From Thioalkalivibrio sp. ALJ16 (GTDB taxonomy: Bacteria; Pseudomonadota; Gammaproteobacteria; Ectothiorhodospirales; Ectothiorhodospiraceae), in contig NZ_KB898039.1 in NCBI RefSeq assembly GCF_000377345.1, positions 186,001 through 250,000 on the forward strand: 64,000 bases of DNA, in the 5' to 3' direction. Position 1 is the first letter of the stretch, and each line of letters opens with the position of its first letter. This document shows positions 54,613 to 63,020 of the stretch, piece by piece. A program made the position numbers and the translations under genes. The notes under the pieces were generated by a model. The model had not been told where the DNA came from and did no database searches. It worked only from the letters and a program-made list of their open reading frames with translations.

Positions 54613-56629
54613 GGGGGTCGGAATCGGTATCGTCGGGGCCGTTTTCGGTCGCGGGTCGCGGCGGGAACAGGAATTCGCGCGGGCGTTCGCGCAGGTGGCG
54701 GCCATAGGCCCGGAGCACGCGGCCGAAGGCCCCGATGCGTACCCCGCGGGCGCGCAGGGCCACATACAGGGCAAGCCCGAAGCTGACCCACAGGTTGACC
54801 GCGCCGATCATCAGCACGAAGGCGAGGAACAGCCCGAATCCGGCCAGTCCGGGGGCCTCGCTGGCGGTCACGTAGCCGAGGTTGGCCGAGGCGAAGGCTA
54901 CGTGCTGGATATCCAGCGGGAGATTCAGCAGATAGCCGACGTATCCGGTAACCCCCAGCAGCACGCCGAACAGGAAGTTGCCCATCAGCGCGCCGTAGTT
55001 GTACCCGATCCAGTCGGCGAGGCGATGACGCGCGGCAGTGGGCAGTATCCGCCGCAGCAGCGGGTGTTCGCGCAGGCGGCCGGGCAGGTCCAGATAGGCG
55101 CAGCGGTTGTCGAAGAAACCGGCGATCAGGCCGGATACGAACAGCCAGACCCCGGCGATCGCGGCAAACATCAGCGCCAGGCCCATGATCGGGCGTAGGC
55201 CGTCCAGCAGGTAGTCGACCTCGCCGCCGGACAGGACGCTGGCCCCGAACAGGCTTGTCGTCGCCAGCCCGATCAGGATGGCGGTGGGCAGGGCCACCCC
55301 GACATTGCCGAGCACCGCGGCGAACTGCGAGCGGCCTACCCGCATCAGCAGGTCCGCCATCTTGCGCGGGTCGGCGGTGCCGCGTTCGCTCTCCTCGATG
55401 GCGGCGGCCAGGCGGGCCGCGGTCATCGCCGGCTGCTTGGTGGCGACAGTGAAGTGCAGGATGTGGATCAGCACGAAACCGAGGCCGTAGTTCAGGCTGA
55501 CCCAGAGGGTGTTCCAGCCCTCGGACAGGCCCAGTCCCTCGATCTGGATCTTGATCAGCGCCATCACCGCGATGATCAGCCCGGCGCCGGCCCCGGAGCG
55601 CAGCATCTGGAGGTACTCGCTGCGCGACTGGGTGATGTAGTGCTCGCCGGTGTCGCTGACATGCTGGGTGATGCTGCGCGAGACCAGCTTGATGTTGTCC
55701 TGCCACAGCGCGCGTACGCCGTGGCTGCGGGCGCTGGCCGTGACCAGTTCGCGGAACACGCCGACGGCGGCGCCCCGGGGCGACTCGCCGCTTTCGGGTT
55801 CCAGCAGGTCCAGCAGCTTGTGGATGCGGGCCAGAGTCTGGTTCAGGCGCTCCAGCAGGTGAGTCAGCGACAGGCTGCTGCCGTGCGTGATCGCGCGCCG
55901 GCGCAGGCGTTCGATCTGTTCGCTGCACTGCTCCAGCAGTACGCGGGCATGGCGGTCATCCATGCGTGTGTGTTCCGGCTCCTCCAGTGCGCGTCGGTAG
56001 TCGCGCACGTACGCCGAGATCTCGCGCTCCTGGGCGACAAAGGCCGAGTTGCGTTCGGCGATGGTCGGGTCCAGCCGCAGCAGTTCCGGCTCCAGCTCTT
56101 CCGCGGCGATCCAGATCGACAGCATCTCCAGCGCGTACAGGGCCTCCGCGCGGGCGCGATGCAGTACCCCGGGGTGTTCGTCGGAGAGACAGCCCAGCGC
56201 CTGCAGCAGCCGCGACCAGGCGTCGTCCGGCAGATGGGCCACCCAGATCGCGTCGCGCGGGTCGTGAAACACGTGGTAGAGGATGTCCTTCAGGTCCTCG
56301 CGGTCCATCGGACGCGGGTTGATACGTTCGTACAGCAGCTCCGCCGCTTCACGGAAAAAGCCCTTGCGCGAAAACAGGCCGATCCCGGTGTACAGCGTCA
56401 GGTGGCGCGCGTCTTCCAGTCCGTGCTCCAGGCGCTGGCGCAGGCGGTCGCGCAGGTCGGGCTGTTCGTCCAGGGCCAGGACCAGGGCCTCGATGCGGGC
56501 AATGACGGGGGCCACGTTGCGCGCATCATCCGGGCGTAGCCAGTCAACGATCCAGCGCAGGGTGTCGGCCAGATCGAGTTCGGCGCCGGCCACGCGGGCG
56601 AGCAGTTGGGGCGCGTCCTGCTTGGGCAT
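54599..56629 (-). CDS. SpecificRecomb (Gcr-like) family membrane protein
   Basis: The 676-residue protein belongs to the family labelled site-specific recombinase after gonococcal Gcr. The N-terminal half is soluble and helical (LYTGIGLFSRKGFFREAAELLYERINPRP in parts, DILYHVFHDPRDAIWV). The C-terminal half has about six membrane segments (SGAGAGLIIAVMALIKIQI, LMFAAIAGVWLFVSGLIAGFFDNR). No recombinase catalytic residues are visible, so the name is misleading. Ribosome site GAGGG precedes the ATG at 56629. Confidence 0.85.
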   Translation of the reverse strand: MPKQDAPQLLARVAGAELDLADTLRWIVDWLRPDDARNVAPVIARIEALVLALDEQPDLRDRLRQRLEHGLEDARHLTLYTGIGLFSRKGFFREAAELLYERINPRPMDREDLKDILYHVFHDPRDAIWVAHLPDDAWSRLLQALGCLSDEHPGVLHRARAEALYALEMLSIWIAAEELEPELLRLDPTIAERNSAFVAQEREISAYVRDYRRALEEPEHTRMDDRHARVLLEQCSEQIERLRRRAITHGSSLSLTHLLERLNQTLARIHKLLDLLEPESGESPRGAAVGVFRELVTASARSHGVRALWQDNIKLVSRSITQHVSDTGEHYITQSRSEYLQMLRSGAGAGLIIAVMALIKIQIEGLGLSEGWNTLWVSLNYGLGFVLIHILHFTVATKQPAMTAARLAAAIEESERGTADPRKMADLLMRVGRSQFAAVLGNVGVALPTAILIGLATTSLFGASVLSGGEVDYLLDGLRPIMGLALMFAAIAGVWLFVSGLIAGFFDNRCAYLDLPGRLREHPLLRRILPTAARHRLADWIGYNYGALMGNFLFGVLLGVTGYVGYLLNLPLDIQHVAFASANLGYVTASEAPGLAGFGLFLAFVLMIGAVNLWVSFGLALYVALRARGVRIGAFGRVLRAYGRHLRERPREFLFPPRPATENGPDDTDSDPHDRH

Positions 56630-56721
56630 GGGCTCCCTCGGGGGTGGTGGGTGTCGTGCCGGCATTATAAGGTGGCGTTCGGCCGTTGTGCCCTGTGTCG
56701 CGGGGCCCGTCTTGCGAGCGC

Positions 56722-56754
56722 AACGTTGAGCTTGGGGCGCTCAGCGTTCACAAT
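56722..56754 (+). promoter_or_regulatory. Candidate promoter with operator-like dyad upstream of csoS1D
   Basis: TTGAGC (56726-56731) and CACAAT (56749-56754) are separated by 17 bases. AACGTTGAGC (56722-56731) is the inverse of GCTCAGCGTT (56739-56748) at nine of ten positions, so the dyad covers the -35 box and most of the spacer, the usual place for a repressor site. Confidence 0.45.
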
Positions 56755-56894
56755 ACGCCCCTCAATTCTTCCGTGTATGCGCGCGGGGCCTGCGATCCGA
56801 TCGCGGCCGGGCCGGGCGTGCGCGGCTCCCCGCGCGGGTTCGGGCCACGCCGTGCGGGGCGTCAGGGGTACAGACCCCGGCCCAGAGCGAATCG

Positions 56895-57509
56895 ATGATC
56901 CAGCTGCGAACCTACGTCTACATGGATTCCCTCCAGCCGCAGCTGGCGGAATACATGGCTACGGTCTCCCAGGGCTTTCTGCCCGTACCGGGGGACTCCT
57001 GCCTGTGGGTGGAGGTTTCGCCGGGGATGGCGGTGCATCGTCTGACCGATGTGGCACTGAAGGCGACCAACGTGCACCTCGCGCAGCAGGTCGTGGAGCG
57101 CGAGTTCGGCTCCATGGTGATCCACCACCGCGACCAGAGCGAGGTGCAGGAGGCCGGCCGCGTGCTGCTGTCGCGCCTCGGCGCCAGCCAGGAGGATCGC
57201 CAGCCCTGTCGCATCCCGTGGCAGGAGACCATCCGCGGGATGACCCCGGACCACACCGTGCTGATCAACCGCCAGAACCGCCGCGGGAACATGATCCTGC
57301 CGGATCAGAGCATGTTCATCCTCGAGGCGGAACCGGCCGGCTACATCATCTATGCCGCGAACCAGGCGCTGAAGGCGGCCAATGTGTCGCTGATCGACGT
57401 GCGCGCGGTGGGCGCCTTTGGGCGTCTGACCCTCGCCGGCCGCGAGGGCGACGTGGACGAGGCCGCGCGCGCGGCGATCCACGCGCTGCACAACCCCGCC
57501 GGGACCTGA
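56895..57509 (+). CDS. csoS1D: Tandem-BMC carboxysome shell protein CsoS1D
   Basis: The 204-residue protein contains two bacterial-microcompartment domains: residues 36-98 ([41 protein letters not shown]) and 139-198 ([45 protein letters not shown]). [18 protein letters not shown] and [19 protein letters not shown] are the CsoS1D signatures. Such proteins stack as trimers with a gated pore in the alpha-carboxysome shell; Glu68-Arg69 probably correspond to the gate residues. The about 50-residue N-terminal extension of cyanobacterial forms is missing. No other cso gene lies in this window; a NUDIX gene follows directly. Confidence 0.9.
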
Positions 57510-57510
57510 G

Positions 57511-58083
57511 ATGCATCGCGCGCAGCTGCTGGACCTGCTGGCCCGTCACCAGACGACCTTCATCGAGGAGGCCGGCTTCGTCCGCCGTGCGCTGGATTTC
57601 GTCAGTGACCACCCGGACTGCTTCAATTGCGACCTGACCCCGGCCCACGTGACTGGTTCGGCCTGGGTGGTCAGCCCGGATCGCGAGCAGGCATTGCTGC
57701 TGCTGCATGGCAAGCACTATCGCTGGTTCCAGCCGGGCGGGCACGCCGATGGTCAGGCCGACATCCTGCAGGTGGCCCTGCGCGAAACGCACGAGGAGAC
57801 CGGGCTAGCCCCGGAACATATCCGCCTGGTCGAGGAGGATGTGTTCGACCTGGATATCCACACGATTCCGGCCAGCCCGAGCTTTCCGATGCACGAACAC
57901 ATCGACGTACGCTTCCTGCTGGAGATCGACGACCGCCTGCCGGTGCCCGGCAGCCACGAGTCGCACGAGATCCTGTGGGTCCCCCTGCAGCATGTCTCCC
58001 GCTACAACAACAGCCGTTCCCTCTGGCGCATGGTGGAGAAGACCCGGCGCCTGCGCACCGTCCGCCACATCCATCCGCGCTGA
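57511..58083 (+). CDS. NUDIX hydrolase
   Basis: The 190-residue protein has a NUDIX box GHADGQADILQVALRETHEE (then TGL), in which the REXXEE metal site is intact but the first Glu of the box is Ala. WFQPGGHADGQ places it in the branch with GGH before the box. Residues 1-45 form an added helical region. Its ATG lies one base after the csoS1D stop, so they are co-translated. Substrate is unknown; metabolites such as nucleotide sugars, ADP-ribose or phosphorylated sugars are typical. Confidence 0.88.
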   Translation: MHRAQLLDLLARHQTTFIEEAGFVRRALDFVSDHPDCFNCDLTPAHVTGSAWVVSPDREQALLLLHGKHYRWFQPGGHADGQADILQVALRETHEETGLAPEHIRLVEEDVFDLDIHTIPASPSFPMHEHIDVRFLLEIDDRLPVPGSHESHEILWVPLQHVSRYNNSRSLWRMVEKTRRLRTVRHIHPR

Positions 58084-58110
58084 GTGTTTCCGGCGCGGGG
58101 TCGCGCGGCG

Positions 58111-58139
58111 TTCCGGTCGGCGCCAGCTGGCGCTATAGT
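58111..58139 (+). promoter_or_regulatory. Candidate promoter for the first hydrolase-TlpA fusion
   Basis: TATAGT (58134-58139) is five of six to consensus; TTCCGG (58111-58116) at 17 bases is a poor -35. Start would be near 58146, about 28 bases before the ATG. Confidence 0.4.
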
Positions 58140-58173
58140 CGAGCCGATCCCCTGCCCGAACAGGCCTGAGACG

Positions 58174-59448
58174 ATGAGTGTGCTGCGGAGACTGTGTCTG
58201 CTGTTGCTGGTCCTTGTCCTGCTCGTGCCTGTATCCGGAGCGGCCGCCGCGGAAACCCGTAGCGTCACGGTCACCGATGCCGCCGGCGTCGATCTCGAAG
58301 TCACCGTCTACCCGTCCAGTGGCGATCGCCTCTATCTGTGGCTGCTCCCGCAGCGTGGCGCGCACGCCAATCATGCGCATTTCGGGCGCGAACTGGCGGC
58401 CATGGGGATCGAGGTGTGGCAGGTCGACCTGCTGGACGCCCACTTCCTGCCCCGCAGCAACGAGAGCATGCGCAGCCTGGACGGCGTCAGCGTCGCGGCC
58501 CTGCTGCGCGCGGCCCATGAACAGACCGGCAAGGAGGTGATGCTGGTCGCCTCGGGCCGGCCCGCGGTCACGGCCCTGCGCGGCATGCGCCAGTGGCAGG
58601 CGGATGGCCCCGATACGCCTTACGTGCTCGGGGCGGCGCTGGCGTTCCCCAACCTGATGATCGACACGCCGGTGGCGGGTGCGCCCGCCGAGTTCGTGGA
58701 GGTGTTGCAGGCGACCAGCCTGCCGGTGTTCCTGCTCCAGCCATCCCAGGGCGTGTATCGCTGGCACCTGGACGCGATCCTGTCCGATCTGCGCCATGGC
58801 GGCAGTGCGGTGTTCGTGCAGATGGTTCCGGGGGTGCGCGATTTCTACTACCTGCGCCGCGAGGAACCCGACCCGGAAGAGGCGGCCGCGACCGCGCGCC
58901 TGCCCGCACAGCTGCTGCAGGCGGGGCGGCTGCTCGCCAGCGTGCCGCGTCCGTTGGCGGCCGCGCCCATGCCCGAGACCACGGCGGGTGTCGAGGCCGG
59001 GCGGGGCCTGGTCGAACGCGATCAGCATCCGCCGGTTGCCGACTTCACGCTCACCGATCACCGCGGTGACGAGCAGTCGCTGGCGGACTATGCCGGGCAG
59101 GTGGTGCTGCTGAATTTCTGGGCCACCTGGTGCCCGCCCTGCGTGCACGAGATCCCGTCGATGAACCGCATGGCCGAGACCCTGGGCGACGGCTTTGCCA
59201 TCGTGTCGGTCAATTACCAGGAGAGCGCGGAGCACATTGCCGCCTTCATGGACGATGTGCAGGTGGATTTCCCGGTACTGATGGACTTCGACGGCCGCGT
59301 GGCCGCCGACTGGCGCGTGTTTGCCTTCCCCAGCTCGTTCATCCTCGGCCGCGACGGCCGTGTGCGCTATTCCGTCAACAGCGCCATCGAGTGGGACGAC
59401 CCCGACGTCATCCGCCGCGTTCGGGCCCTGATGGACGAGCCCGAGTAG
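58174..59448 (+). CDS. Exported hydrolase-like domain fused to TlpA-type thioredoxin, copy 1
   Basis: The 424-residue protein starts with a signal peptide (LCLLLLVLVLLVPVSGAAAA). Residues 30-255 resemble an alpha/beta-hydrolase-like domain (LYLWLLPQRGAHANHAHFGREL, VWQVDLLDAHFLP, VMLVASGRPAVTALRG) but lack a clear GxSxG, having ASGRP. Residues 280-424 are a TlpA/ResA-type thioredoxin with WCPPC (319-323) in LLNFWATWCPPCVHEIPSM and cis-Pro in FAFPSSFILGRDG. A periplasmic thiol-disulfide role is expected for the C-terminal half. A convergent paralogue lies 63 bases downstream. Confidence 0.75.
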   Translation: MSVLRRLCLLLLVLVLLVPVSGAAAAETRSVTVTDAAGVDLEVTVYPSSGDRLYLWLLPQRGAHANHAHFGRELAAMGIEVWQVDLLDAHFLPRSNESMRSLDGVSVAALLRAAHEQTGKEVMLVASGRPAVTALRGMRQWQADGPDTPYVLGAALAFPNLMIDTPVAGAPAEFVEVLQATSLPVFLLQPSQGVYRWHLDAILSDLRHGGSAVFVQMVPGVRDFYYLRREEPDPEEAAATARLPAQLLQAGRLLASVPRPLAAAPMPETTAGVEAGRGLVERDQHPPVADFTLTDHRGDEQSLADYAGQVVLLNFWATWCPPCVHEIPSMNRMAETLGDGFAIVSVNYQESAEHIAAFMDDVQVDFPVLMDFDGRVAADWRVFAFPSSFILGRDGRVRYSVNSAIEWDDPDVIRRVRALMDEPE

Positions 59449-59511
59449 TGGCCTGAGTAGTGGCCCGCCTGGCGGGTGCCGGGTCAGACATGTGCGTTTG
59501 TCAGCACTGCG

Positions 59512-60834
59512 CTATTCGACATTTTCCTCGGGGGCCTCGTCGAGGAGTTCGCGCATCTGCGCGATCACGCCGGGTTCGGTCCATTCGATGGCGCCGAACA
59601 GGTAATAGCGCACCTGACCCTGGCGATCGATCACGTAGCTGGTGGGGTAGGCCATCGCGCGCCAGTCGCTCAGCGATGCCTGCTCCGGGTCGAGCAGGAT
59701 GGTGAAATCCGTCTGCACCTCGTCCTCGATGAAGCGGCGGATGGTGTCCTCGTCCTCGCCCAGATTCACCGCCAGTATGCGGAAGCCCTCGTCGCGCAGT
59801 TCGTCCTCCAGTAGCTGCATGGAGGGCATCTCGTGTACGCAGGGCGGGCACCAGCTGGCCCAGAAGTTGATCAGCACGACCTCGCCGCGATAGTCCTCCA
59901 GACGATGGGTATCGCCCTGCAGATCGGGGCGTTCCAGCGGCGGGGCCGGCACCGGCTCGTCCAGGGTGCTCAGCTGCGCGTCGCTGCCGCTGGGGGTGCG
60001 TACGGTCAGGTCCGTGTCCTCGGCGGCGGCCGCGGCGACCCGCTGGCGGGGCAGGCGCGACAGCATGTCGATGCCGAACAGGATCTCGCGGTGGAAGGTC
60101 TCGCGGGCCAGGTACTCGCGCTCGGTCGCGTCCGGGCGGAAAAAGAAGCGGTCGCGAACATCGGGGAGTACCCGGGCCCCCACCGCGCTGCCGCCCTCGG
60201 ACAGCCCCGCCCGTATCCGCCCGAGCTGCTGGTGCTGGGGCGACTGCGCGGGCTGCAGGATGTACACCGGCAGGTTGGTCAGTCCGACGATGGGCTGCAG
60301 CTCGGTCGTTTCGGTGTCCACGCCGGTGTGCAGGAACGGGCTGGCCATCAGCAGGCCGGCCAGGTGCTCCGCCTCCGGGTGGGCCTGCTGCCACTGGTAG
60401 AGCCCGGTCAGCAGCCAGGGCAAGGCGCGGTCGTGGCCGAAGGCGAAGACGGCGTGGCCGGTATCGGCATGCGCCGCCTCGATCAGGTCCACCACGGTGG
60501 CGGTGGGCATGTCGTCGAAGCTCGATGCCGCCTCCGGCAGGAAATGTCCGGTAAAGGGATCGACCAGCCAGACCTCGACCCCGGTCGCCTGCAGGGCCAG
60601 GGCCTGCTCCCGATGCCCGTCGCGCAGTCCGTGTTCGGACGGGAACCACAGCAGCACGACATCGCCATCCGCGCGGTAGCGTTCCACCGGGATCTCGGCC
60701 CCGCCGGCCTCGATCGCAACTGCGGCATCGGCCGCCCCGGTGGGGCGGTCATCGTTTTCCTGGGCCTGGGGTGCAAGCGGGAGCCACAGCAGGGCGGTCA
60801 GGAGCAGCGGCAGGACAGGCAGACGATTGGGCAT
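59512..60834 (-). CDS. Exported hydrolase-like domain fused to TlpA-type thioredoxin, copy 2
   Basis: The 440-residue paralogue of the convergent neighbour has a signal peptide (LPVLPLLLTALLWLPLAPQAQ). The hydrolase-like part has VVLLWFPSEHGLRDGHRE, VWLVDPFTGHFLPEAA and VFAFGHDRALPWLL, where the nucleophile position reads FGHDR. The thioredoxin part has WCPPC (328-332) in LINFWASWCPPCVHEMPSM and AYPTSYVIDRQGQVRYYLFGAIEW. Both parts match copy 1 in the same order, so the fusion predates the duplication. The start at 60834 places the signal peptide at the N terminus. Confidence 0.75.
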   Translation of the reverse strand: MPNRLPVLPLLLTALLWLPLAPQAQENDDRPTGAADAAVAIEAGGAEIPVERYRADGDVVLLWFPSEHGLRDGHREQALALQATGVEVWLVDPFTGHFLPEAASSFDDMPTATVVDLIEAAHADTGHAVFAFGHDRALPWLLTGLYQWQQAHPEAEHLAGLLMASPFLHTGVDTETTELQPIVGLTNLPVYILQPAQSPQHQQLGRIRAGLSEGGSAVGARVLPDVRDRFFFRPDATEREYLARETFHREILFGIDMLSRLPRQRVAAAAAEDTDLTVRTPSGSDAQLSTLDEPVPAPPLERPDLQGDTHRLEDYRGEVVLINFWASWCPPCVHEMPSMQLLEDELRDEGFRILAVNLGEDEDTIRRFIEDEVQTDFTILLDPEQASLSDWRAMAYPTSYVIDRQGQVRYYLFGAIEWTEPGVIAQMRELLDEAPEENVE

Positions 60835-60960
60835 GGCAGCGTGGGCATCTGGATTCGAGGGTAGACGCGCTAGAGACCCGAATTGCTCCACGAAGGTTCG
60901 GCGCGCCGCCAGTCCCGGTGGCCCGCGATGCCCTTCCGCGCGCTCGGTTGCTGGGGGCGC

Positions 60961-61194
60961 CTACAGTCCGATCAGTTCGGCATGCAGGCCGGAGGCCGTG
61001 ACTGTATCCAGCAGCCGGCGGCTGTTGATCCGTGCGGGATCGTATTCCACCACCATCAGATGCGGCCGTTCGTCGTGGCTGGAGGCGGCCATTACGCCGG
61101 GGAGTTCGCGCAGGGTGTCCTGGATGCGTTCGCGGGCCGCGTGATCGGTGTCTTCGTCGATGTGGATGGTGACATCCGCCATGTGAGTGCTCAT
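60961..61194 (-). CDS. Small HMA-like ferredoxin-fold protein
   Basis: The 77-residue protein has the beta-alpha-beta pattern of heavy-metal-associated domains (ADVTIHIDEDTDHAARERIQDTLRELPGV, then LMVVEYDPARINSRRLLDTVTASGLHAELIGL in parts) but lacks the CxxC metal site, so metal binding is unlikely. The ATG at 61194 has GGAGG eight bases upstream. It is divergent from the TetR gene across 131 bases. Confidence 0.65.
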   Translation of the reverse strand: MSTHMADVTIHIDEDTDHAARERIQDTLRELPGVMAASSHDERPHLMVVEYDPARINSRRLLDTVTASGLHAELIGL

Positions 61195-61291
61195 CGCGGG
61201 GACCTCCGAAGCTGTGGGCCTTACCTGAATATAGACCCCGTGGGGCAAGACTCGCACCGGTCGCGGAGTGGCGTGGTGTCCAGTCCCGGGC

Positions 61292-61311
61292 TATATTAGA
61301 ACGAACGTTCG
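61292..61311 (+). promoter_or_regulatory. Candidate -10 and operator of the TetR-DsrE operon
   Basis: TATATT (61292-61297) is a likely -10 box. The perfect 10-bp palindrome CGAACGTTCG (61302-61311) lies over the expected transcription start, 15 bases before the TetR ATG, a typical site for autorepression. No good -35 was found. Confidence 0.5.
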
Positions 61312-61325
61312 GTTTGGTGTTCGAG

Positions 61326-61976
61326 ATGACAGAAAACCCGAAGCAGGCAGTATGCGGCGCCGCGCTGCGCAAGCTGGTGCTGGATACCGCGCTCGAGCTT
61401 TTCAGCCGTGATGGCTATTTCAATACCTCGATCCACGACATCCGCCGTCAGGCCGGGGTCTCCATCGGTTCGATCTATCACCACTTCGGCAACAAGGAGG
61501 CGCTGGCCAAGGCGCTTTACGACGACCTGCTGCAACGCATGGATGCCGGGCTGCGCGAGGTGATGGAACGGGAGCCGGGTTGTCGCGCGCGCTGCGACGG
61601 CATCATCGCCTTCCTGTTCCGGGCGGCGCAGGACGACCCCCGCACCATGCGTTTCGTGCTCGAGGCGCGCCACCGCGAATTCCTGCCGCACGAACCGCCA
61701 GTGTGCTCCTCGCAGCCCTTCATGCGCATGCGTGAGTGCATCGAGCAGGGCATTGCCACCGGCGAGCTGCGCCCGATCGAGGTGCCGGTCGCCGCCACCG
61801 CGGCCTTCGGCGGGACCATCCGGCTGTTGCAGCTGCATCTGGACGGGGTCCTGGAAGCACCCCTGTCGCGCTATCTGGCGTCGATGCAGGAGGCCGCCTG
61901 GCGCGCGATCGCGAACGACTCGCCCAACGCCACGAACAACACCACGAACAACACCACCCAGGAGCCTGAACAATGA
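61326..61976 (+). CDS. TetR/AcrR family transcriptional regulator
   Basis: The 216-residue regulator has a classic N-terminal HTH: LVLDTALELFSRDGYFNTSIHDIRRQAGVSIGSIYHHFGNKEALAKALY read in parts (helix 3 SIGSIYHHFGNKEAL). The C-terminal ligand domain is Cys-containing and unassigned. The last residues are low-complexity (NATNNTTNNTTQEPEQ), encoded by a 12-bp tandem repeat. Its stop overlaps the start of the next gene (ATGA), so it is co-translated with the DsrE-like genes and probably controls them. Confidence 0.9.
   Translation: MTENPKQAVCGAALRKLVLDTALELFSRDGYFNTSIHDIRRQAGVSIGSIYHHFGNKEALAKALYDDLLQRMDAGLREVMEREPGCRARCDGIIAFLFRAAQDDPRTMRFVLEARHREFLPHEPPVCSSQPFMRMRECIEQGIATGELRPIEVPVAATAAFGGTIRLLQLHLDGVLEAPLSRYLASMQEAAWRAIANDSPNATNNTTNNTTQEPEQ
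61931..61954. repeat. 12-bp tandem repeat, two copies, in the tetR 3' end
   Basis: CACGAACAACAC occurs twice in a row (61931-61942 and 61943-61954), in frame, encoding Thr/Asn residues of the TetR tail. Gain or loss of one copy would keep the frame. Confidence 0.75.
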
Positions 61977-62461
61977 AAATGCTGGCCGCTGTCTCCCTGT
62001 TACTCGCGCTGTCCCTCGCCGCGCTGTCCGCGCACGCCGAGCCCAGCGATGCCCGTGCGCTTGAGGGTGTCGATCAGGGTCGGGTCGTGTTCGACCTGAA
62101 CAACAACGATCCCGAGCTGCTGGCGCTGTACCTGATGGTGATCCGCGAGACCCACGAGGACCTGACCGCGCAGGGCGTGGAGCCGGACATGATCCTCGCC
62201 TTCCGCGGCCGGGCCGTGACCATGGTCAGCGAGGATCGCGAGCGCTTCGAACTGACCGAGTTCGATCATCTGGACGCGATCGAGGAGCACGTGGCCGCGC
62301 TGAAGGACAAGGGCGTGCGTATGGAATCCTGCGCCGTGGCCACGCGCCTGTTCGGCGTCGACCACGGCGAGCTGCTGCCCGGTATCGAGCCGGTGCGCAA
62401 CACCTTTGTCTCCCTGACCGGCTACCAGGCTCAGGGCTACGCGGTGATCCCGATCTATTAA
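61973..62461 (+). CDS. Exported DsrE-family protein, copy 1
   Basis: The 162-residue protein has a signal peptide (KMLAAVSLLLALSLAALSAHA). The mature part matches periplasmic DsrE/DsrF-like proteins: RVVFDLNNNDPELLALYLM, DMILAFRGRAVTMVS, and the conserved Cys120 in GVRMESCAVATRLFGVD, ending NTFVSLTGYQAQGYAVIPIY. Cytoplasmic DsrE relatives carry sulfur as persulfide on a Cys; a sulfur-carrier role in the periplasm is only inferred. AGGAG lies eight bases before the ATG. Confidence 0.82.
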   Translation: MKMLAAVSLLLALSLAALSAHAEPSDARALEGVDQGRVVFDLNNNDPELLALYLMVIRETHEDLTAQGVEPDMILAFRGRAVTMVSEDRERFELTEFDHLDAIEEHVAALKDKGVRMESCAVATRLFGVDHGELLPGIEPVRNTFVSLTGYQAQGYAVIPIY

Positions 62462-62519: not shown

Positions 62520-63020
62520 ATGCGAAACCGAATGCTGATCCTGTTGCTCGCCCTGCTGCTGCCGCTTGGCCCTGCATCCACGGCGATCGCCGAAGGCCTG
62601 GACAACCGCGAGGCCACCCAGGGCATCGAGACCATGCGCGCCGTCTACGACATGCGCAAGTCCGACCCCAACGTGATGCTGGCCTACCTGCGCGGCATTG
62701 CCACCAACCACGAGAACCTGGTGAAGGAGGGTGTGGAGCCGGACCTGCGCATGGTCTTCATCGCCGAGGCAGTCAAGTTCATCACCACCGACCCCGAGCC
62801 CGAGATCGCGATGGACCACGGCGACACGCTGGAGGCGATCGCGGAGGCCGTTGAGCGCCTGGACGAGCTGGGCGTGCGCATGGAGGTCTGTGCCGCCGCG
62901 ACCCGTGCCTACGGCGTCGACAACGACAAGGTACTGGATGCGATCCGGCCGGTGCGCAGTGGCTTCATCGCCGTAATGGGCTACCAGAACCAGGGCTACG
63001 CGCTGGTCCCGGTTTACTAG
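62520..63020 (+). CDS. Exported DsrE-family protein, copy 2
   Basis: This 166-residue paralogue of the previous gene has a signal peptide (RMLILLLALLLPLGPASTAIA), AVYDMRKSDPNVMLAYLRGI, LRMVFIAEAVKFIT, and Cys124 in GVRMEVCAAATRAYGVD, ending GYQNQGYALVPVY. The central Cys is conserved between the copies. Ribosome site AGGGAGG is nine bases before the ATG, right at the end of a triple 12-bp repeat. Confidence 0.82.
   Translation: MRNRMLILLLALLLPLGPASTAIAEGLDNREATQGIETMRAVYDMRKSDPNVMLAYLRGIATNHENLVKEGVEPDLRMVFIAEAVKFITTDPEPEIAMDHGDTLEAIAEAVERLDELGVRMEVCAAATRAYGVDNDKVLDAIRPVRSGFIAVMGYQNQGYALVPVY

Follow-up and report, generated by a model that had tools for sequence, protein, structure and literature searches.

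Two convergent thioredoxin fusion genes of Thioalkalivibrio sp. ALJ16 belong to an unnamed protein family that occurs almost only together with SoxB in Gammaproteobacteria

A stretch of 64,000 nucleotides of Thioalkalivibrio sp. ALJ16 (contig NZ_KB898039.1, positions 186,001 to 250,000; hereafter the window) contains two convergent genes, A and B, whose products combine an N-terminal domain of predicted alpha/beta-hydrolase fold (N-domain) with a C-terminal thioredoxin domain of the TlpA/ResA type. The family represented by A and B is nearly restricted to genomes with SoxB. Because it occurs almost only together with SoxB, it is probably an overlooked helper of sulfur oxidation, and a functional link to this process is very likely. 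We read A and B as anciently diverged paralogues from an unnamed family of thiol-disulfide reductases of the periplasm, in which a pseudo-hydrolase domain would direct the reductase to a Sox-cycle sulfur carrier. This reading is given a rough probability of 0.5.

Gene A is located on the plus strand (58174-59448; ATG at 58174, stop at 59448, 424 amino acids) and gene B on the minus strand (59512-60834; ATG at 60834, stop at 59512, 440 amino acids), with a stop-to-stop gap of 63 bp. As described in the initial annotation, both translate as convergent, paralogous open reading frames (ORFs) with signal-like leaders and a WCPPC thioredoxin. Their products share 37% identity over 395 columns and thus over nearly the full length (BLASTP, E 2e-78). 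The leaders occupy residues 1-25 of A (58174-58248, plus strand) and about residues 1-25 of B (60760-60834, minus strand). Judged by eye on the translations rather than by a signal-peptide predictor, they give both proteins the look of exported proteins and suggest a periplasmic location. A scan of 56600-61400 yielded no promoter-like site and three terminator-like sites, none of them between A and B.

The thioredoxin domains extend over 59017-59439 (A, plus strand) and 59536-59967 (B, minus strand), with the WCPPC motifs encoded at 59128-59142 and 59839-59853, respectively. Both are of the AhpC-TSA/Redoxin type (PF00578, E 1e-24 for A and 2e-25 for B), and in the predicted models they superimpose on ResA (2h1b) with Z-scores of 21.1 (A) and 22.4 (B). 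The best scores against the NCBIfam models stay below the cut-offs of these families, namely 91.6 bits versus 170 for ResA, 75.7 versus 230 for TlpA, and 70.1 versus 123 for DsbE.

The occurrence of the family was determined by a profile search for the N-domain (match at E 0.001 or better) in 321 gammaproteobacterial genomes drawn evenly over the class. N-domains were found in 65 genomes from 40 families. Named carriers of the family include Guyparkeria, Halothiobacillus, and symbionts of Stewartia, Ctena, and Solemya. In 19 of the 65 genomes two N-domain places are present, of which the pair of genome G078 looks like pieces of one gene. In a phylum-wide sample, 2 of 299 genomes match among the matches listed, the window genome itself and G559, and all 22 listed rows belong to the same class. 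A plasmid search gave no match to the family, and a third N-domain was not found in the window genome at E 1.

SoxB scores over the cut-off in 128 of the 321 genomes (168 with any match; matches below the cut-off were counted as absent). It is present in 60 of the 65 genomes with the N-domain versus 68 of the 256 others (Fisher p 4e-23; such values overstate independence because the genomes are related). Sturdier than the p values is the observation that 38 of the 40 families with the N-domain include a genome having both. Of the two groups of clients that the initial annotation had proposed for the thioredoxin, sulfur oxidation is favoured by this co-occurrence, and for c-type cytochromes nothing was found beyond the resemblance of the thioredoxin domain to ResA and TlpA.

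Autotrophy alone was considered as the underlying link and rejected. PF00016, comprising RuBisCO and RuBisCO-like proteins, is over the cut-off in 165 of the 321 genomes and in 57 of the 65 with the N-domain. The RuBisCO-like proteins are indeed counted as well, since this model is over the cut-off in 5 of 14 control genomes; the controls for SoxB, SoxC, and DsrA gave 0 of 14. The family occurs in 55 of 109 genomes with SoxB and PF00016, in 5 of 19 with SoxB only, in 2 of 56 with PF00016 only, and in 3 of 137 with neither. SoxB thus still separates the genomes that have PF00016, and the effect of PF00016 within the SoxB genomes is weak (p 0.08). A complete Sox system or a reverse Dsr pathway was likewise rejected as the link. 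For this comparison, 40 SoxB genomes with the fusion and 40 without it were taken (40 of 45 and 40 of 60, respectively, at least 94% complete). SoxC is present in 10 of 40 versus 9 of 40 and DsrA in 31 of 40 versus 22 of 40 (p 0.058). The window genome itself encodes two SoxB proteins and RuBisCO, and neither SoxC nor DsrA was found over the cut-off. In this genome, genes resembling TusA, HdrC, HdrB, and HdrA (below the cut-offs in NCBIfam; L246:6465-14498) are located near one of the two SoxB genes, pointing to a sulfur oxidation of the sHdr type.

The two domains are partners. The class search gave 84 N-domain places, for which the flanks of 60 regions were fetched, and 40 regions from a search with full-length A were added. 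An in-frame WCxxC motif was observed in 116 of 123 N-domain ORFs, a proportion biased by the part of the set that was fetched through full-length A. The 61 N-domain ORFs of the 60 loci fetched by N-domain match alone are free of this choice, and as 56 of them hold the motif, the fusion layout is not a product of chance. Except for L218, which is cut by assembly Ns just ahead of the motif, and L122, a piece of a frame-broken gene, the seven ORFs without WCxxC are separate N-domain genes. In the 61-ORF set, the five ORFs lacking the motif are L218 and four with a separate thioredoxin gene next to them on the same strand.

In case of all five split loci (L045, L185, L227, L234, and L235), the next same-strand gene encodes a thioredoxin with its own leader (by eye). 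In three of the gene pairs the overlap amounts to 4 nt; a fourth pair shares as much as 26 nt, according to which start codon is used, and the fifth has a gap of 3 nt. In a tree of 195 thioredoxin domains, 115 of which derive from fusion ORFs, 2 changes are needed to set the fused and split thioredoxins apart from 75 other TlpA-type domains. The split thioredoxins group with the fused ones, and therefore fused and split forms represent the same pair. Both this tree and that of the N-domains are quick and unrooted, with many weak forks. The N-domain tree places all five split genes in clade III, four of them grouped together and L045 at a separate position. In L243 of G559, a single N-domain match lies in an open frame of 317 amino acids, perhaps a further split or a truncated form.

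The N-domains of A (58249-58944, plus strand) and B (60052-60744, minus strand) were modelled with AlphaFold2 and compared with known structures. The model of A, built from 13 sequences, has a mean predicted local distance difference test score (pLDDT) of 88.8, and the model of B one of 86.6. By structural alignment (VIA), the modelled N-domain of A matches 2o2g, titled dienelactone hydrolase, with Z 22.3 and a root mean square deviation of 2.4 A over 200 residues at 12% identity, and that of B matches 7d78 with Z 21.0 and 2o2g with Z 20.7. The hydrolase matches stem from the VIA lists; with Foldseek, all 50 matches among those listed are thioredoxins. On the predicted models, the computation thus assigns both N-domains to the alpha/beta-hydrolase fold, closest to that of dienelactone hydrolases.

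At the sequence level, no significant Pfam or NCBIfam match covers the N-domain of A or B, as only the thioredoxin part was matched. The sole N-terminal row of the libraries is a mycoredoxin model on residues 31-57 of B (E 0.04). In a Pfam search with 13 N-domains, DUF1749 was returned for one of them at E 2e-4 and all remaining rows had E 0.013 or worse, none of them for A. Among solved structures, the search by sequence returned a single row at E 0.77. The initial annotation had called the first domain hydrolase-like and the layout one without a named family; both statements agree with these searches and with the predicted fold. A gene resembling, by eye, an exported dienelactone hydrolase adjoins the fusion, a catalytically degenerate relative in fold, in three loci (L033:6981-7853, L035, and L198). 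In L033 its product has a GYCFGG elbow.

Alignment and model place the sequences ASGRP of A (residues 126-130, nucleophile position Gly128; 58549-58563, plus strand) and FGHDR of B (GHDR, residues 133-136, nucleophile position Asp135; 60427-60438, minus strand) at the position of the nucleophile elbow. In the model of A, this elbow is situated between strand 96-103 and helix 105-118. The absence of a GxSxG nucleophile noted earlier thus holds for both proteins, and the nucleophile-acid-His triad of alpha/beta hydrolases has not survived in the family. In the alignment of the 123 N-domain ORFs, the nucleophile position (residue 128 of A) is occupied by Gly in 45, Asp in 45, and Ser in 16 cases. 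The tree and the counts per clade comprise 121 of these ORFs. Here, the position holds Asp in 21 and Gly in 10 of the 32 members of clade I, to which A belongs. In clade III, the clade of B, Gly is found in 34 and Asp in 24 of 68, and in clade II Ser in 14 of 21, where some members have GDSYA as the elbow sequence. Ser or Cys occupies this position in 16 of 121 N-domains, and a combination with any His in the His-loop region was observed in 1 of 121.

Other residues of the former active site are well conserved. Arg129, adjoining the nucleophile position, is present in 85 of the 123 aligned ORFs, Gln189 near the acid loop in 112, and Arg222 and Asp223 in the former His loop in 87 each; in most members of clades I and III, Gln189 is followed by Pro. 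Clades I and III, which together contain 100 of the 121 N-domains, thus mostly show Arg, Gln-Pro, and Arg-Asp where catalytic residues once stood. An exception is given by clade II, in which Tyr replaces Arg and Arg-Asp is absent. Judging from these residues, the N-domain is probably non-catalytic, and we infer a pseudo-enzyme that has retained the old pocket for binding.

In the mechanism that we propose, the pseudo-hydrolase domain would serve to dock a partner or to bind a ligand. In clades I and III, a partner or a sulfur anion would be bound by Arg, Gln-Pro, and Arg-Asp, and the N-domain would thereby bring a cysteine-bound sulfur species beside WCPPC, which would reduce or transfer it. 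Such partner recognition by the N-domain fits the five loci in which the halves are separate adjacent genes. The likeliest client would be a sulfur carrier of the Sox cycle, with SoxYZ in first place and exported DsrE-like proteins as the second candidate, although SoxYZ as the actual client is put forward only tentatively. It is tempting to speculate further that the pocket holds the sulfur-loaded carrier arm or a polysulfide and passes it to the thioredoxin, which might provide the missing periplasmic step that frees sulfane sulfur from SoxYZ, or that regenerates SoxYZ, ahead of import. This last proposal is more doubtful still.

Several observations weigh against an assignment to the Sox cycle. 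Besides the overstated Fisher values, these include the five N-domain genomes without SoxB over the cut-off (G083, G094, G243, G272, and G293). G094, G243, and G272 are less than 90% complete, and G094 has a SoxB match below the cut-off, but G083 and G293 are complete. Conversely, 68 of the 128 SoxB genomes are without the family, which is therefore not essential to Sox, and among SoxB genomes neither SoxC nor DsrA predicts the fusion. In all 60 genomes that have both, the listed places of SoxB and the N-domain fall on separate contigs or are 240 kb or more from each other, so that the family was found encoded beside SoxB in 0 of 60 genomes; no search of the flanks for other sox genes was made. 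Within three genes of the fusion, no cluster of neighbouring genes occurs in more than 8 ORFs (114 loci), and hence there is no general operon partner. SoxYZ, the prime suspect among the clients, would be singled out by analogy with SoxS alone. Finally, due to its Tyr in place of Arg and its lack of Arg-Asp, clade II, with an elbow Ser retained by 14 of its 21 members, may differ in function.

An alternative is a general periplasmic thiol-disulfide reductase, acting for instance in cytochrome c or CuA/Sco assembly. The bias towards sulfur oxidisers would then reflect their respiratory make-up instead of a role in Sox. In addition to the lack of SoxB or a recurrent operon partner beside the family, this explanation draws on the thioredoxin domain, whose fold is closest to ResA and TlpA, and on titles in the PDB that describe TlpA trapped with ScoI and with cytochrome oxidase subunit II. 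However, among the 193 sampled genomes without SoxB over the cut-off only 5 have the family, and the separation by SoxB persists among genomes with RuBisCO. Furthermore, two additional TlpA-like domains (E 1e-15 or better) are encoded in the window genome. We consider a general reductase somewhat unlikely.

Less probable is an N-domain that is still an enzyme, i.e., a non-standard alpha/beta hydrolase with an Asp, Gly-Arg, or Ser-Tyr elbow. Its substrate would be a thioester, sulfonate, or polysulfide, and the thioredoxin would deliver thiols or take them away. In favour of this reading, each clade conserves the former active-site positions instead of letting them drift. The Asp that 45 of 121 N-domains have as nucleophile residue has a precedent in dehalogenases and epoxide hydrolases, which use an Asp nucleophile, and most members of clade II have Ser there, in part within GDSYA elbows. 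On the other hand, the nucleophile position varies between clades, none of the clades has a conserved His in the His loop, Asp at the nucleophile position coincides with a His in the His-loop region in only 11 of 121 cases, and the part after the seventh strand lacks a conserved acid. Given this distribution of residues, catalysis by the N-domain is unlikely.

The fusion is old, as the initial annotation had assumed and as its wide occurrence across genomes bears out. The duplication with subsequent inversion that had been postulated for A and B was not upheld. A belongs to clade I, together with members from Guyparkeria, Halothiobacillus, and others, and B to clade III. In G013, G031, G034, and G036, one member of each clade is present, on different contigs or more than 90 kb apart; the distance between the A- and B-type genes is about 93 kb in G001 and 99 kb in G025. 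A local duplication with inversion was rejected in view of these separate old clades and of the remote locations in other genomes. Convergent neighbours were observed, apart from the pair of the window genome with its gap of 63 bp, in G002, G004, G009, G011, G022, and G024, with 0.8 to 8.4 kb between the two genes. Since members of clades I and III coexist far apart in other genomes, the pair of the window is most simply explained by old paralogues that became neighbours secondarily. The A-type gene of G022 is broken into two frames (L122:13277-14850), and its B-type gene is intact.

Genes in the flanks were called with our own script and grouped by BLAST; the neighbours within the window and two regions of the window genome were checked against the family libraries. 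Upstream of A, a NUDIX gene (57511-58083, plus strand; PF00293, E 1e-12) is preceded by a gene for a CcmP-like bacterial microcompartment (BMC) shell protein (56895-57509, plus strand; PF00936, E 4e-11), which scores 229 bits against NF053796 CcmP, under the cut-off of 340. The NUDIX cluster occurs in 8 loci of the source genus and adjoins the A-type gene in 6 of them. Being on the same strand, the NUDIX gene may perhaps be co-transcribed with A. The BMC cluster occurs in 10 loci, all of one genus, and lies within three genes of the fusion in 8. In L132 and L133, the BMC gene of the same cluster adjoins the fusion in another order, and thus two arrangements exist within the genus. A location near hemF, topA, and others (names by eye) is common to several clade III genes. 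This neighbourhood was considered as an operon and rejected: it is recurrent yet mostly antiparallel, often with one gene between, and was read as a stable site.

The region past the 5' end of B contains a small gene, whose HMA match is weak and below the cut-off, as well as a TetR-type regulator gene (61314-61976, plus strand; PF00440, E 1e-16) adjoining two DsrE-like genes in tandem. Their products, DsrE-like protein 1 (61973-62461, plus strand; PF02635, E 1e-6) and DsrE-like protein 2 (62520-63020, plus strand; PF02635, E 3e-11), each have a signal-like leader and a single Cys (residues 120 and 124, respectively) at a similar place. They are possibly periplasmic sulfane-sulfur carriers with a sulfur-responsive TetR regulator. 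The regulator carries a VCSS motif, with ICSS in L044 and L183. Members of the TetR and DsrE clusters are also located near the B-type gene in L116 and L117 and, for L118 and L120, close to the A-type gene. Outside the genus, in the related loci L044 and L183, the DsrE-like protein 2 cluster is two genes and the TetR cluster four genes away from the fusion. These neighbours speak for an exported DsrE-like carrier, or the whole TetR/DsrE cluster in a sulfane-sulfur or arsenite-type stress, as the partner in place of SoxYZ, and DsrE/F-like genes of Thioalkalivibrio shift expression under arsenite according to the accessible part of PMC6620896. Against this partner, which we consider improbable, stands the linkage to the fusion in 7 of 114 loci, from two far-apart lineages.

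Both folds of the family are known. Their combination, the pseudo-enzyme character, the split-gene form, and the link to SoxB were not recognised in searches of open-licence PubMed Central, among whose listed articles nothing was identifiable by title or abstract as the fusion family. A redox-active, exported-looking two-domain protein that tracks SoxB over 40 families, and whose halves stay side by side even as separate genes, offers a concrete candidate for an accessory step. It is also an example of a hydrolase fold retained as an apparently non-catalytic module beside a thioredoxin. If the speculative transfer from pocket to thioredoxin is true, the family would represent a widespread, unrecognised module of sulfur-oxidising Gammaproteobacteria.

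With ResA, TlpA, and CcmG (DsbE), the family shares the C-terminal fold (Z about 21-22), WCxxC, and a signal-like leader. It differs from them in the domain of about 230 residues with predicted alpha/beta-hydrolase fold that precedes the thioredoxin; ResA, TlpA, and CcmG members are not known to have such a preceding domain. The N-domain shares the fold of dienelactone-hydrolase-like alpha/beta hydrolases, with 200 residues of 2o2g aligned at 2.4 A, but differs from them in its identity of 12%, the lack of a Pfam match for A and B, and the missing triad. A thioredoxin-fold protein encoded upstream of thiocyanate dehydrogenase in Guyparkeria and Thiohalobacter, proposed as a sulfur acceptor in the accessible part of PMC6504805, comes from similar organisms. 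That protein is described there as being without the redoxin-activity motif ("COX motif"), whereas the family reported here keeps CxxC.

The closest parallel in function would be SoxS and SoxW of alphaproteobacterial sox clusters, for which, as far as the accessible part of a 2024 paper goes (PMC11582611), a periplasmic action on SoxYZ is proposed, the same role that we suggest here. According to the same source, SoxS binds SoxY, and the route by which leftover sulfur bound to SoxYZ enters the cytoplasm is unknown. SoxS is encoded together with soxR and soxT, as far as that source describes it, whereas members of the present family are located far from SoxB; the comparison with SoxS and SoxW was drawn by description, not by sequence. 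The family may thus be a gammaproteobacterial counterpart of the role proposed for SoxS in Paracoccus.

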